Of a DNA stretch of 54,647 nucleotides, positions 28,512 to 35,411 are shown in pieces; the first letter of the stretch is position 1, and the number at the start of each line of letters is the position of its first letter. The notes below the pieces were generated by a model that did not search any database, was not told where the DNA came from, and worked only from the letters and a program-made list of their open reading frames with translations. The translations under genes and the position numbers were made by a program. The DNA is taken from positions 1 to 54,647 of the forward strand of contig JAJSLL010000013.1 in the NCBI GenBank assembly GCA_026127935.1, read 5' to 3'. Origin of the DNA: Thermoplasmatales archaeon (GTDB taxonomy: Archaea; Thermoplasmatota; Thermoplasmata; Thermoplasmatales; GCA-001856825).

Positions 28512-29315
28512 TTAAGAAACCCCTGAAACAGACTTTCTCTCCGGACCTTTTGTCGCTTCTTTTTGCTTGTACTTGACAAATGAGTTCGAGGCCAATAATT
28601 GTCGAAGCAATTGGACTCCGAGTGCTGGGTCTACTCCCTTGGGGCATACCTCCGAACACGCTCCCGAGAAGTGGCATCTCCACACCCCGTGTTTCGAGTC
28701 GAGAACGTTCAGCCTCTCGTTGAATCCCATGTCTCTGTTGTCTGTTATGTACCTGTATCCCTGAGCTAGTGACTGGGGTCCGAGATAGAGTTCGTCGGTT
28801 GCATTCGTGGGACACGCTGATAGACACATTCCGCAGAGTATGCAGTCCGTGAACATCGCATACTCTTCACGCTGTTCCGGAGTCTGAAGGAATTCGCTCT
28901 TCGGTTCCTCCTCTTCCCTGATAATGTAGGGCTTGACAGATTCATGATTCCTGAAGAGTTTAGAGAGGTCTGGAACGAGGTCCTTCACTATGGGATAATT
29001 GCCCATAGGGTCAACCTTTATCAGATCCTTGTTGAGTTCGAGAATCTGTGTCTGGCACGCCAATTGCTCCTTCCCGTTTATGATCATCCCGCACGACCCG
29101 CATATCCCCATCCTGCAGGAATATCTTGCAGAGACGGAATGGTCGAGGTGCTCCTTGATGTACAGTATTCCATCGAGGACGGTCATACCCATCTGCACAG
29201 GTACCTTATACTCCATGTACTTCGGGAGCTCTCTCTTTTCCGGATCATATCTTCTCACCCGGAACGTGACCGTCTTCAAGACTTCCCCAAATCCTTTCAG
29301 CGCTAGTTCTTGCAT
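28512..29315 (-). CDS. sdhB: succinate dehydrogenase/fumarate reductase iron-sulfur subunit (first set)
   Basis: A 267-residue subunit carrying three clusters. The plant-type [2Fe-2S] site is YSCRMGICGSCG with a distal Cys near residue 82; CILCGMCLSACP and CSEVCPKGVDP give the [4Fe-4S] and [3Fe-4S] sites. It passes electrons from the flavin to the membrane anchor. It is the last gene of an sdhA-C-D-B operon and has a GGAGGAATC ribosome site before the ATG. The direction of reaction (succinate oxidation or fumarate reduction) cannot be told from sequence. Confidence 0.93.
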   Translation of the reverse strand: MQELALKGFGEVLKTVTFRVRRYDPEKRELPKYMEYKVPVQMGMTVLDGILYIKEHLDHSVSARYSCRMGICGSCGMIINGKEQLACQTQILELNKDLIKVDPMGNYPIVKDLVPDLSKLFRNHESVKPYIIREEEEPKSEFLQTPEQREEYAMFTDCILCGMCLSACPTNATDELYLGPQSLAQGYRYITDNRDMGFNERLNVLDSKHGVWRCHFSGACSEVCPKGVDPALGVQLLRQLLASNSFVKYKQKEATKGPERKSVSGVS

Positions 29316-29316
29316 A

Positions 29317-29721
29317 TCAGATTCCTCCTCCGTTTAGCATCGCTACTATTGTGTTGGACCCGTAGATGAAAATGATCAGAGCGACGATGAGCATTGAATA
29401 AGTTATGATCTTCTCCCTCGTACCTCCCGGAAACTGTTCGGACAGAATGACTCTGAATCCGTTGAAGACGTGGAACACAAGGAATGTAAGGAGTAGCTCG
29501 AAGACCGATCCCCAGGCCAATGAAGTGTAGACGGCCTTGACGCTATAGTAATTGAGTGTTCCTCCGATGAGGATGTGTGCACCACTCGAACTGTTGTAGA
29601 GGTAGAGTATCTTGTCCGAGGTGGGTGCTAGTGCACTGATCGCAAGAAAATGCATCGATCCAAAAACGAGTATGAGAAGACCCGTCATGTACTGTATGAA
29701 CATTATCCGTGACTCTCTCAC
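29317..29721 (-). CDS. sdhD: succinate dehydrogenase membrane anchor subunit D
   Basis: A 134-residue protein with three hydrophobic helices. FHVFNGFRVIL near residue 85 resembles the His-x-x-x-Gly-x-Arg haem-ligand segment of SdhC/SdhD families. The start is GTG 29721 in a GTGA overlap with the sdhC stop, with GGGGTGATC as ribosome site; the in-frame ATG at 29703 is less well supported. It anchors the SdhAB head and helps form the quinone site. Confidence 0.8.
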   Translation of the reverse strand: MRESRIMFIQYMTGLLILVFGSMHFLAISALAPTSDKILYLYNSSSGAHILIGGTLNYYSVKAVYTSLAWGSVFELLLTFLVFHVFNGFRVILSEQFPGGTREKIITYSMLIVALIIFIYGSNTIVAMLNGGGI

Positions 29722-30170
29722 AGGATCACCCCTGTGAAGATGAAATAGATACCCACTGCGCTAATAATTATCATGAGAACTCCAAGCATTATCTTGAGGA
29801 CGTTGTTCAATCCCTTGAGTGATTTCGGTCTGTACGGAAATTCTGGTCTGTATGGTTTCGGAAGCATCAGTCCGTTTTCAACTATCGTAAGCCTTATGCC
29901 GTTAAGGGCATGATATACTGCGACCAGCAGAACGCCCGACAGGATGAACGGACCGAAATGCGGTCCGAATGGATAGTCAAGGAAGACCATGAGTGAGTTC
30001 CAGGTAATCGGGCCATCCAGGATGTGGGATGTCTCCCACACGTGGGCTATCAGATAGAGCCCCAGAATTATTCCCGTCAGTCTGTGGAGAGAATACATCC
30101 ATCTGTCCGTCCCGTACTTGAATGGGTTGAACCACGAAATCCAGCCTTTCTTGTTTTCTATTGTCATCAT
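29718..30170 (-). CDS. sdhC: succinate dehydrogenase cytochrome b556 subunit C
   Basis: A 150-residue, three-helix cytochrome b subunit. SLHRLTGIILGLYLI is the quinone-site signature of SdhC, and VAVYHALNGIRL provides the haem b His. A GAGGTGA ribosome site precedes the ATG. It sits between sdhA and sdhD and overlaps sdhD by 4 nt. Confidence 0.9.
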   Translation of the reverse strand: MMTIENKKGWISWFNPFKYGTDRWMYSLHRLTGIILGLYLIAHVWETSHILDGPITWNSLMVFLDYPFGPHFGPFILSGVLLVAVYHALNGIRLTIVENGLMLPKPYRPEFPYRPKSLKGLNNVLKIMLGVLMIIISAVGIYFIFTGVIL

Positions 30171-31892: not shown

Positions 31893-31974
31893 ATAGATCG
31901 CCAGTAAGAAAGTGCATGACGCTATAAAAATTAAATTCCCTATTTAGTATAATAAACTAAATTAGGAGAACCTA

Positions 31975-32010
31975 AGATAAGAATATGGAGAAAAAAATCT
32001 ATTCTTATCT
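31975..32010 (-). terminator. hairpin after the second sdh operon
   Basis: AGATAAGAATA (31975-31985) and TATTCTTATCT (32000-32010) are a perfect 11-bp inverted repeat with a 14-nt loop. On the minus strand the loop carries seven consecutive T residues. It lies 14 nt past the stop of the 56-residue gene and before the first sdhA, where transcription of the second operon should end. Archaeal termination depends on T-runs, so the loop run may be the functional part. Confidence 0.6.
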
Positions 32011-32023
32011 CCTTTTCACCAAA

Positions 32024-32194
32024 TTAAGTTGCAAGAATAGAGAATGCGAATATCACGAATCCTGCTGCCACCATTCCTACTATTCCTGTCTTCGTTATGT
32101 CGGTAACTTTGAACAACACTCCGGCAATTTCTATGATGAAAATACCTAGGAAGAAGAGCGGGTATCTGTATCTGCTGGGAAGTATCTTCAGCAT
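32024..32194 (-). CDS. 56-residue membrane protein in the second sdh operon
   Basis: An ORF of 56 codons plus stop that begins 3 nt after the stop of the anchor gene and ends just before the terminator hairpin. Its sequence begins MLKILPSRYRYPLFFLGIFI and contains two hydrophobic helices (about residues 12-30 and 37-55) joined by a short polar KVTDITKTG loop. It fits a small extra subunit of the Sdh1-like complex: mycobacterial succinate dehydrogenases have been found to contain small additional membrane polypeptides. No family can be named from the sequence alone. Operon position and a clean two-helix pattern support a real gene. Confidence 0.65.
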   Translation of the reverse strand: MLKILPSRYRYPLFFLGIFIIEIAGVLFKVTDITKTGIVGMVAAGFVIFAFSILAT

Positions 32195-32197
32195 CGA

Positions 32198-32917
32198 TCA
32201 CAACCCCGAATGGATGAGCACGATGTTAGGGATCACTCCGCCGATCATTCCTCTTATGAACAGGTCGACGAACACGAACATTATCAGACTCGTCCAGGCA
32301 ATTGCCTCGTGATGGCCGTTGAGCCTTGACTGCAGCCTGTAAAGTGAATTCTTTTTGTTCTGGTTTGCAGGGCAGTTGACGCAGTCCTTGTAGCCGCCTA
32401 TGAGGTGTCTCACCGAATGACAGGAGAATGTATAGGTTGTGACTGCAACTGCGTTAACCGCGAGTATGATTGTTCCCAGAGTCACTGTGACAGCACCGGT
32501 GTAGACGATTGAAACGTAAACGTCATAGAAGAAGAATGGAAGGATTGCCCATGCCGTGTACATGAAGTACCTATGTACATTTTCCACCCGGAAGAATCCT
32601 GTCTCACCACTGTATCCTCTCTTCTTTGAATCGAGTCTAACGTCGGTTGCGCAGCTGTTCGGATGATTGAAGAGGTGTCTGTGGTAATCCTTTCTGTAGG
32701 CGTAGCAAGTCAGTCTGAAGAGAACTACCAGTGGAAGTATCAGGACCGTAGGCGTGTAAAATGGATCGGTCAGTCCATCGAATACTGGAACTTTGTAAAG
32801 CAGTATCAGCACCGTACCCAAGATGGATATCATGACGAATGACCAGAACCTCCAGTTCGGTTCAAGGAATTCCGGCGGTATCAGGTGCTTGAGGGAAGTA
32901 TCGCTCGCCGCTCTCAT
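32198..32917 (-). CDS. large membrane anchor of an Sdh1-type succinate dehydrogenase/fumarate reductase
   Basis: A 239-residue protein with about five or six hydrophobic helices. It resembles the single large anchor of actinobacterial Sdh1: FRLTCYAYRKDYHR, the NPNSCATD loop, VENVHRYFMYTAWAIL, TFSCHSVRHLIGGYKDC and RLNGHHEAIAWTSL are recognisable in order. Several His residues (HRYF, CHSVRH, NGHH) could bind haem b. This anchor is unrelated in layout to the SdhC/SdhD pair of the first operon. Its ATG overlaps the stop of the iron-sulfur gene (ATGA), and a 56-residue gene follows. Confidence 0.78.
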   Translation of the reverse strand: MRAASDTSLKHLIPPEFLEPNWRFWSFVMISILGTVLILLYKVPVFDGLTDPFYTPTVLILPLVVLFRLTCYAYRKDYHRHLFNHPNSCATDVRLDSKKRGYSGETGFFRVENVHRYFMYTAWAILPFFFYDVYVSIVYTGAVTVTLGTIILAVNAVAVTTYTFSCHSVRHLIGGYKDCVNCPANQNKKNSLYRLQSRLNGHHEAIAWTSLIMFVFVDLFIRGMIGGVIPNIVLIHSGL

Positions 32918-33663
32918 GCCTTCACCCTCCTTTGTTTTCTTGACCTCAAGAACATCGCAATGGGGTCGTATGAAATATTGACAGCCCTCTCCTTCTCCGG
33001 AATTATTGCATTATCAGTAATGTGTATTTCCTCAGGGCATACTTCACTGCAACACTTCGTGATGTTGCAATATCCAAGCCCCGCATCTTTGTTCATGAAC
33101 TCAGATCGGTTTAAGGTGTCCAGTGGATGCATGTCAAGTGAGGCAGCCTTCACGACGTGCCTGGGTCCAAAGTAGCCTGTGCTGTGGTCTCTTATAACGT
33201 GACAGACATCCTGACACAGGAAACATTCTATGCACTTCTTGAATTCCTTCGACCTCTCTATATCTACCTGTGATATTCTCCATGGTTTTTCCAGGCCCTC
33301 CTTTGGGGTGAATTTCGGGATCTTCTTCAGGAGTGCCCAGTTTTCAGACACATCGGTCACCAAATCCTTTATGAGCGGGAATGCCGCCATCGGTGCGACC
33401 TTGATCTTGTCTCCCTTCAATGAGTCCACCCTGGTCTTGCACATCAGAGATGGCTTGTGGTTAATCTCAGCAGAACACGAACCGCATTTCCCGGCACTGC
33501 AATTCCACCTGAGAGACATACTCGGGTCTAGGTGTCTCTCGATGTACTTCATTGCATCGAGGACGACCATTCCATCTTCTCTTGGAACCTCATAATCGAC
33601 ATACTTCCCCTCCTTTTCAACAGCAGGGTCTCTTCTGAAAACGCTTACCTTTACAGTATCCAT
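32914..33663 (-). CDS. succinate dehydrogenase/fumarate reductase iron-sulfur subunit (second, Sdh1-like set)
   Basis: A 249-residue subunit. WNCSAGKCGSCSAEI with a following MCKTR Cys is the [2Fe-2S] site, KKCIECFLCQDVCHVIRDH the [4Fe-4S] site, and GLGYCNITKCCSEVCPEEIHITDNA the [3Fe-4S] region (each given in part). The whole layout, including LVTDVSENW and the DMHPLDTLNR stretch, is close to actinobacterial Sdh1 and unlike the first set's SdhB, so the two complexes are not recent duplicates. It is coupled by overlaps to the flavoprotein before it and the anchor after it. Confidence 0.92.
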   Translation of the reverse strand: MDTVKVSVFRRDPAVEKEGKYVDYEVPREDGMVVLDAMKYIERHLDPSMSLRWNCSAGKCGSCSAEINHKPSLMCKTRVDSLKGDKIKVAPMAAFPLIKDLVTDVSENWALLKKIPKFTPKEGLEKPWRISQVDIERSKEFKKCIECFLCQDVCHVIRDHSTGYFGPRHVVKAASLDMHPLDTLNRSEFMNKDAGLGYCNITKCCSEVCPEEIHITDNAIIPEKERAVNISYDPIAMFLRSRKQRRVKA

Positions 33664-35411
33664 CAGTACACCTCCTGCGGGATAATTTTCTTTAACTCAT
33701 CTGGTATTTTCGGGACATCTCTCCATTCCAGTTTCATTCCATCCTCTCCCTTCTTGTAAATGATGTTCTTTCTCATATCTGGATTTTTTTTCGGGAAATC
33801 GCTTCTCGCGTGAGCACCTCTGCTCTCCTTCCTTTCCAATGCTCCTCTGACTATCGCTTCTGAAGCGGTTAGCATTGAGGGCAATTCCAACGCCTGAAGC
33901 AGTCCCTTGTTGTACTTCAGTCCTCCTTGGACTGAGGCCTTTTTTGAATCCTCTTTTAGATTCAGTATCACTTTCAGCGCTTTCTTGAGCGCCTCTTCGT
34001 TTCTGATTATTCCAACGTTGTCGCTCATATTTTCTTCCAGACTGGCGCTTAAATCGTAAGGGTTGGTTCCATTACTATTCGTCAATGATTTCACTCTCTC
34101 GATTTCCTTTATGACATCAGATTCTGCAAAATTTCCCAGAGATACTGTTTTGGAAAAGGACGAAGCACCATCTCCGCTTCTCTTACCAAACACGAGAATG
34201 TCTGCTAGTGAATTCCCACCAAGTCTGTTTGCACCGTGGAGTCCACTGGCAACTTCACCCGAAGCGAAGAGTCCGGGCACATTGGTAGCCGTCGTCTCAG
34301 GGTCGACCTTTATTCCACCCATCTGATAGTGGACAGTGGGTGCAACCTCCATCTTTTCTTTCGTTATGTCGACACCGGCAAAGTCCAGGAATTGTTTGTA
34401 CATGCTAGGCAATTTTTTCTTTATGAAGTCGGATCCCTTGTGGGTTATATCTAGGTAAACTCCGCCGTGCGGCGTACCTCTTCCAGCTATGATCTCCGCG
34501 TAGTTTGCCCTGGCTACGATATCCCTCGCATCAAGTTCCATTTTCTTCGGAGAATATTGTTGCATGAACCTTTCTCCTTTGGAGTTCAGCAGAATTCCTC
34601 CCTCACCTCTGACACCCTCGGTGACTAACAATCCCTTCACTCCAGGTGGGTACACCATACCGGTAGGGTGGAACTGTATCATTTCCATATCCATCAGTTC
34701 GGCACCTGCCTCGTAGGCGAGTCCGAGCCCGTCTCCAGTTGACTCCCAGGAATTGGACGTGACCTTGTATATCCTGCCGCATCCTCCCGTTGCAATTATT
34801 ACTGCCTTGGACCTGAAAAGATAAAATTCCCCTGTGTTGAGTTTCAGACCGACGGCACCGGCGACCCTATTTGCATCCTTGAGTAGTTTTGTCACATACA
34901 TTTCGTCGAAGAATTTGATGTCCCTGTGAAGTATCTGGTCTTCCAGCGTCTTGATGATTTCAAGACCCGTTCTGTCGCCGACGTGGCACAGTCTCCTGTA
35001 AGTGTGTGCTCCAAATGCCCTCTGCATGATGGTCCCCTCAGGTGTCCTGTCGAAGAGAGCACCATACTCTTCCAGTTCCCTGACCCTGTCGGGTGCTTCC
35101 TTCGCCAACAACTCCGCCATCCTGTAGTTTGAAATGTAAACGCCTTCCTCCATTGTGTCGGCAAAATGCGTTTCCCAACTGTCTTTCGAATCAACATTCG
35201 CAAGTGCTGCCGCGATTCCACCCTCGGCCATGACCGTGTGTGCCTTCCCCAGGAGTGACTTAGATAGTAATGTCACGCTAGATCCGGAATCGAACGCGGA
35301 AATTGCAGCCCTCATTCCTGCTCCTCCGGCTCCTATGATTAGGACATCCGTTTCGTGTTTAATGAATTGTGCATTCATAATTTCATCAAGCTCGATTGGT
35401 TGTTCGCTCAT
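33663..35411 (-). CDS. succinate dehydrogenase/fumarate reductase flavoprotein subunit (second, Sdh1-like set)
   Basis: A 582-residue flavoprotein with GAGGAGMRAAISA for FAD, the flavin-linking His in GKAHTVMAEGG, and substrate residues in HPTGMVYPPGVKGLLVTEG, VHYQMGGI and LHGANRLGGNS. It heads a second operon (flavoprotein, iron-sulfur protein, large anchor, 56-residue protein). ATG 35411 was kept, but the ATTTATATC box near 35425-35433 is only about 18 nt away, so the downstream ATG at 35378 may be the real start and would give the short N-terminus typical of the family. Confidence 0.92.
   Translation of the reverse strand: MSEQPIELDEIMNAQFIKHETDVLIIGAGGAGMRAAISAFDSGSSVTLLSKSLLGKAHTVMAEGGIAAALANVDSKDSWETHFADTMEEGVYISNYRMAELLAKEAPDRVRELEEYGALFDRTPEGTIMQRAFGAHTYRRLCHVGDRTGLEIIKTLEDQILHRDIKFFDEMYVTKLLKDANRVAGAVGLKLNTGEFYLFRSKAVIIATGGCGRIYKVTSNSWESTGDGLGLAYEAGAELMDMEMIQFHPTGMVYPPGVKGLLVTEGVRGEGGILLNSKGERFMQQYSPKKMELDARDIVARANYAEIIAGRGTPHGGVYLDITHKGSDFIKKKLPSMYKQFLDFAGVDITKEKMEVAPTVHYQMGGIKVDPETTATNVPGLFASGEVASGLHGANRLGGNSLADILVFGKRSGDGASSFSKTVSLGNFAESDVIKEIERVKSLTNSNGTNPYDLSASLEENMSDNVGIIRNEEALKKALKVILNLKEDSKKASVQGGLKYNKGLLQALELPSMLTASEAIVRGALERKESRGAHARSDFPKKNPDMRKNIIYKKGEDGMKLEWRDVPKIPDELKKIIPQEVY

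Follow-up and report, generated by a model that had tools for sequence, protein, structure and literature searches.

The stretch of DNA analyzed here, hereafter the window, comprises 54,647 nt from a Thermoplasmatales archaeon, and between positions 28512 and 35411 it holds two different succinate dehydrogenases back to back, one of class F and one classical, followed by complex I genes. The class F operon lies on the reverse strand (−). It encodes the flavoprotein subunit SdhA (33663–35411, −), matched by Pfam FAD_binding_2 at 1.1e-102 and by NCBIfam TIGR01812 above cut-off, the iron-sulfur subunit SdhB (32914–33663, −; NCBIfam NF009052, 6.1e-97, above cut-off), and a 239-aa membrane anchor, SdhC (32198–32917, −). 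A small ORF (32024–32194, −) comes next, for which we propose, from its translation, conservation, dN/dS and AlphaFold model, a 56-aa two-helix membrane protein acting as an accessory subunit of archaeal class F complex II. The ORF listing and translation give it 56 codons, an ATG start and a TAA stop. With the anchor stop codon at 32198–32200, the gap between the two genes is 3 nt and both share the same frame, confirming an earlier note on this DNA that had placed a 56-residue ORF 3 nt after the anchor. The operon terminator that the same note had expected just after the ORF corresponds to a hairpin with a T-rich loop at ~31974–32011 (−), directly downstream of the small gene (the fold of 31955–32030 has −20.9 kcal/mol, z −3.2). 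This likely terminator matched no Rfam family, and beyond it lies the classical sdh operon, where 29317–30170 encodes two Sdh_cyt-type subunits (an SdhC/SdhD pair).

The 239-aa neighbor is a class F (Sdh1-type) anchor, by sequence homology as well as by fold. Phmmer (1.1e-23) and a profile search (1.1e-40) both match it to SdhC of Mycobacterium smegmatis Sdh1 (7d6v_C), a class F complex II whose membrane part carries a Rieske cluster. Its fold matches the same chain at 4.0e-07 with Foldseek, and when anchor and small protein were modeled by AlphaFold as one read-through chain, the anchor part aligned to it with a VIA-align Z of 15.9 (rmsd 3.9 over 195 residues), the next row scoring 7.4. The two anchors are homologous over their length and have a Cys/His set in common: C71, C89, C166, H115, H167, and H203, candidate ligands of a membrane Rieske cluster, do not vary among the 77 distinct archaeal anchors or the 3 bacterial ones. 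Thirteen of the 77 archaeal anchors have Ser in place of H171, a His of the CHSxRH motif, which makes an essential part for this residue in binding the cluster unlikely. A CxxC pair, C179/C182, together with H85, is present in all 77 distinct archaeal anchors and in 0 of 3 bacterial class F anchors, a distribution that suggests an archaea-only metal or disulfide site. In-frame stops were reported within five anchors of one genus, and also in G831 and G678; for similar rows (L083, L093, and L125), the apparent stops are explained by a match extending beyond the true stop.

The small ORF is a real, coding gene under purifying selection. In a comparison of nine congeners, most of its substitutions were third-position changes, and dN/dS against the window sequence was 0.10–0.22 in the seven congener comparisons for which it could be computed, dS being saturated in an eighth. 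An overlapping ORF of 61 codons with a GTG start occupies 32016–32201 (−) in another frame of the same strand and is open in 8 of 9 congeners; the substitution pattern favors the 56-codon frame over it. That a second frame stays open so widely, and that the ORF is small with hydrophobic codon content, are what one would expect if it were an untranslated, chance open frame at the end of the operon. The third-position bias, the low dN/dS, and conservation over several archaeal phyla contradict such an origin, to which we assign a negligible probability.

Linkage of the small gene to the class F anchor is obligate in the sequences surveyed. Among a first set of 61 relatives, 18 have the anchor, each of them with a two-helix ORF after it. 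We then used an anchor-alignment search of contigs, taking the best 80 of 125 relatives; a family member lies directly downstream of the anchor in 79 of these 80 archaeal loci, and in the one exception the contig ends 41 nt past the anchor stop, so that all 79 loci with enough downstream sequence carry the small gene. Its start ranges from 4 nt before to 41 nt after the anchor end, with a 4-nt overlap in 9 of the 79. A first profile, built from 17 relatives, gave 79 matches at E < 1e-3, and the final iteration recovered 79 members among the 11,174 six-frame ORFs of the 80 anchor loci, all at the expected place and none elsewhere.

Separate whole-genome searches found the anchor in 66 of 846 genomes and an adjacent small gene in exactly the same 66, in each case on one contig and strand with at most 59 nt between the matches. 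By group, the class of the window organism (400 genomes) has 45 with the anchor and 45 with the small gene (E of 8.1e-12 or better), although this set overlaps the 61 relatives and the contig-survey loci, so that the surveys are not wholly independent of one another. Among 196 genomes of the Micrarchaeum A_DKE phylum, 20 have each, and among 250 of the phylum of L130, a Thaumarchaeota-labeled record, one has each, L130's own genome. The profile search gave no credible small-gene match in the other 780 of the 846 genomes. Eight extra small-profile matches with E from 5e-4 to 0.01 were dropped before the count of 66 was made; they are partial and lie inside longer frames of 129–735 codons in anchor-less genomes. 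Anchor and small-protein distances correlate with r of 0.68 over 73 pairs (permutation maximum, 0.08), as expected from shared descent alone. The earlier note, suspecting an overlooked subunit, had proposed looking for the frame in related operons, where it now proves to be conserved in 79 of 79 loci and in 66 of 66 anchor-bearing genomes.

The arrangement of the remaining sdh genes varies, and through four arrangements the small gene stays with the anchor; the linkage is strict, and it is to the anchor rather than to SdhA or SdhB. Among the 78 loci with >800 nt upstream, SdhB lies directly upstream of the anchor in 63. SdhA and SdhB are instead downstream on the same strand in six loci, four of which are identical in the small protein and hence not independent, and there the small gene lies between the anchor and SdhA. 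They are downstream on the opposite strand in three. In the last six, neither gene is found within the locus, and a close SdhB (60–62% identity) is present elsewhere in each genome. Loci of this kind are L113, L126, and L131–L134 (Nitrososphaerales-type), in which the anchor and small gene stand alone amid unrelated genes.

A tree of anchor sequences separates the archaeal anchors, as a single group, from two bacterial ones (100/100); as the tree is midpoint-rooted and the bacterial branches are long, deeper conclusions from it are unsafe. Genome labels within the archaeal group include Thermoplasmata, Micrarchaeota, Marsarchaeota, Nanoarchaeota, Parvarchaeota, Nitrososphaerales, and Thaumarchaeota. 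Five Marsarchaeota-titled records (L092, L096, L097, L109, and L118) have anchors nested among Micrarchaeota ones; their titles may be wrong, or the gene may have been transferred. For bacteria, profile searches found no family member in two whole class F replicons or in three 10-kb anchor loci (Gemmatirosa, Nocardia, and Nonomuraea).

AlphaFold predicts two helices in the small protein, at residues 7–30 and 35–54 (mean pLDDT, 92), in support of the two-helix description in the earlier note. Members from the 79 loci are 50–67 residues long, with starts set by a scripted rule that makes exact starts and lengths approximate. Across 74 distinct members, the motif [RK][YFL][PH]xF and Gly45 are present in all 74, Ser52 in 66, and Gly17 in 65, and Phe14 and Gly45 lie 31 residues apart in 65. 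Basic residues average 3.3 at the N-terminus vs. 1.1 in the loop, and K/R are richer at the N-terminus in 72 of 74 members, which by the positive-inside rule suggests that both ends of the protein are cytoplasmic. Of the 74 members, 68 have at least one acidic residue inside a helix or at its start, and no metal-binding Cys or His is conserved among them all.

No Pfam, NCBIfam, or PDB family accounts for the small protein. The window protein had no match in Pfam or NCBIfam at E up to 1, and the 74 members gave scattered weak matches without a common theme, the best in Pfam being DUF3040 (0.00026, with seven members matching). No solved relative was found in the PDB, a search with the family profile included. 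We rejected the possibility that the small protein is a duplicated piece of the anchor, as the profile comparison gave an E of 0.45 over 4 columns. Nor is it supported that the hairpin replaces a missing anchor helix: almost all of the archaeal anchor model is covered by its alignment to 7d6v_C (model residues 20–237 to chain residues 34–273), and the hairpin therefore looks like an addition, not a substitute. No report of the small protein was found in the open-licence papers searched, and passages of PMC3197636, PMC10030591, PMC12727194, PMC5864196, and PMC5498576 make no mention of it.

As a second hydrophobic gene adjoining SdhC in an sdh operon, the small gene resembles that of classical SdhD. 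Classical SdhD, however, has three helices, whereas two are predicted here, and the Sdh_cyt family of SdhC and SdhD (PF01127) is absent from the 20 Pfam families matched by any of the 74 members. A review describes class F, or the Sdh1 type, as having a single membrane subunit of six helices (in passages of PMC10238741). Going by that description, the archaeal anchor differs from Sdh1 in being accompanied by a second membrane protein, and the small protein would be an archaeal addition.

The parallel that the earlier note had drawn was to small extra membrane polypeptides of mycobacterial succinate dehydrogenases. That precedent exists in SdhF, a one-helix subunit of ~3 kDa described as mainly mycobacterial (passages of PMC7447783); it belongs to Sdh2 of M. 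smegmatis, however, and the anchor here is of the Sdh1 type. Like the 56-aa protein, SdhF accompanies a complex II anchor and is small enough to escape notice, but it has one helix where the 56-aa protein has two predicted, and it goes with the diheme Sdh2 type rather than with an archaeal class F anchor. The two have no detectable sequence relation. In mycobacterial Sdh2, the proximal site is said to be blocked by SdhF (PMC7447783), and this precedent, along with the acidic residues in or at the start of the helices, would suit a microprotein with a regulatory role, blocking or gating the quinone site. If it were an optional regulator, some genomes should lack it, yet the small gene is absent from none of the 66 anchor-bearing genomes, and its product has no sequence relation to any solved chain; we regard a regulatory role as improbable.

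The main rival to a subunit is an assembly factor specific to the anchor, which would assist insertion of the anchor, or of the Rieske cluster in its membrane part, before leaving the complex. Small helical proteins serve as SDH assembly factors elsewhere, and such a factor might well be tied as strictly as this one is to the anchor rather than to SdhA or SdhB. The lack of conserved metal-binding Cys or His speaks against it, and adjacency in effectively all loci, together with constant length, would suit a stoichiometric partner better, so that we think an assembly factor unlikely, if less so than a regulator. A permanent binding partner is most likely because the gene tracks one membrane subunit, is constant in size, and is under purifying selection.

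We therefore consider it likely that the small gene encodes an archaeal accessory (fourth) subunit of the membrane domain of class F (Sdh1-type) SDH. In the enzyme so envisaged, SdhA and SdhB would oxidize succinate and deliver electrons to the anchor SdhC, the carrier of the conserved class F Cys/His set. The small protein would enter the membrane as a hairpin of two helices, its basic N-terminus ([RK]-[YFL]-P) facing the cytoplasm, and would bind the anchor, its likeliest role being to cover and stabilize the membrane face of the anchor and thereby the Rieske and quinone region. Counting against a subunit is that bacterial class F works without the small protein; with Sdh1 described as having a single membrane subunit and three bacterial loci without the family, the chemistry itself does not require the small protein. 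As a guide to docking, the AlphaFold model of the fused, read-through pair was rejected (pTM of 0.69, no interface score). It puts the small-protein N-terminus on the extracytoplasmic side, where the anchor tail ends, which contradicts the charge pattern and is probably the wrong side.

The small-protein gene thus probably encodes a fourth subunit that had gone unnoticed in archaeal class F SDH, and a core respiratory enzyme of several archaeal groups appears to have an unrecognized component. The groups concerned are Thermoplasmata, Micrarchaeota, and Parvarchaeota-, Nanoarchaeota-, and Nitrososphaerales-labeled genomes. The subunit would have been overlooked because its gene has fewer than 70 codons and no family match. 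More speculatively, archaeal class F complex II could be a distinct four-subunit enzyme in which an obligate two-helix subunit of a previously unnamed family completes the quinone or Rieske environment of the anchor, alongside the archaea-only C179/C182, and in which anchor and subunit form a module that moves independently of SdhA and SdhB; this wider proposal is one that we entertain without yet favoring it.

A 2013 study remarked that the A-, E-, and G-plasma complexes were "missing SdhD" (passages of PMC3750248), and a fourth subunit of the kind proposed here offers an explanation for that remark. E-plasma does carry the small gene (locus L108), which may be the component that seemed to be missing.
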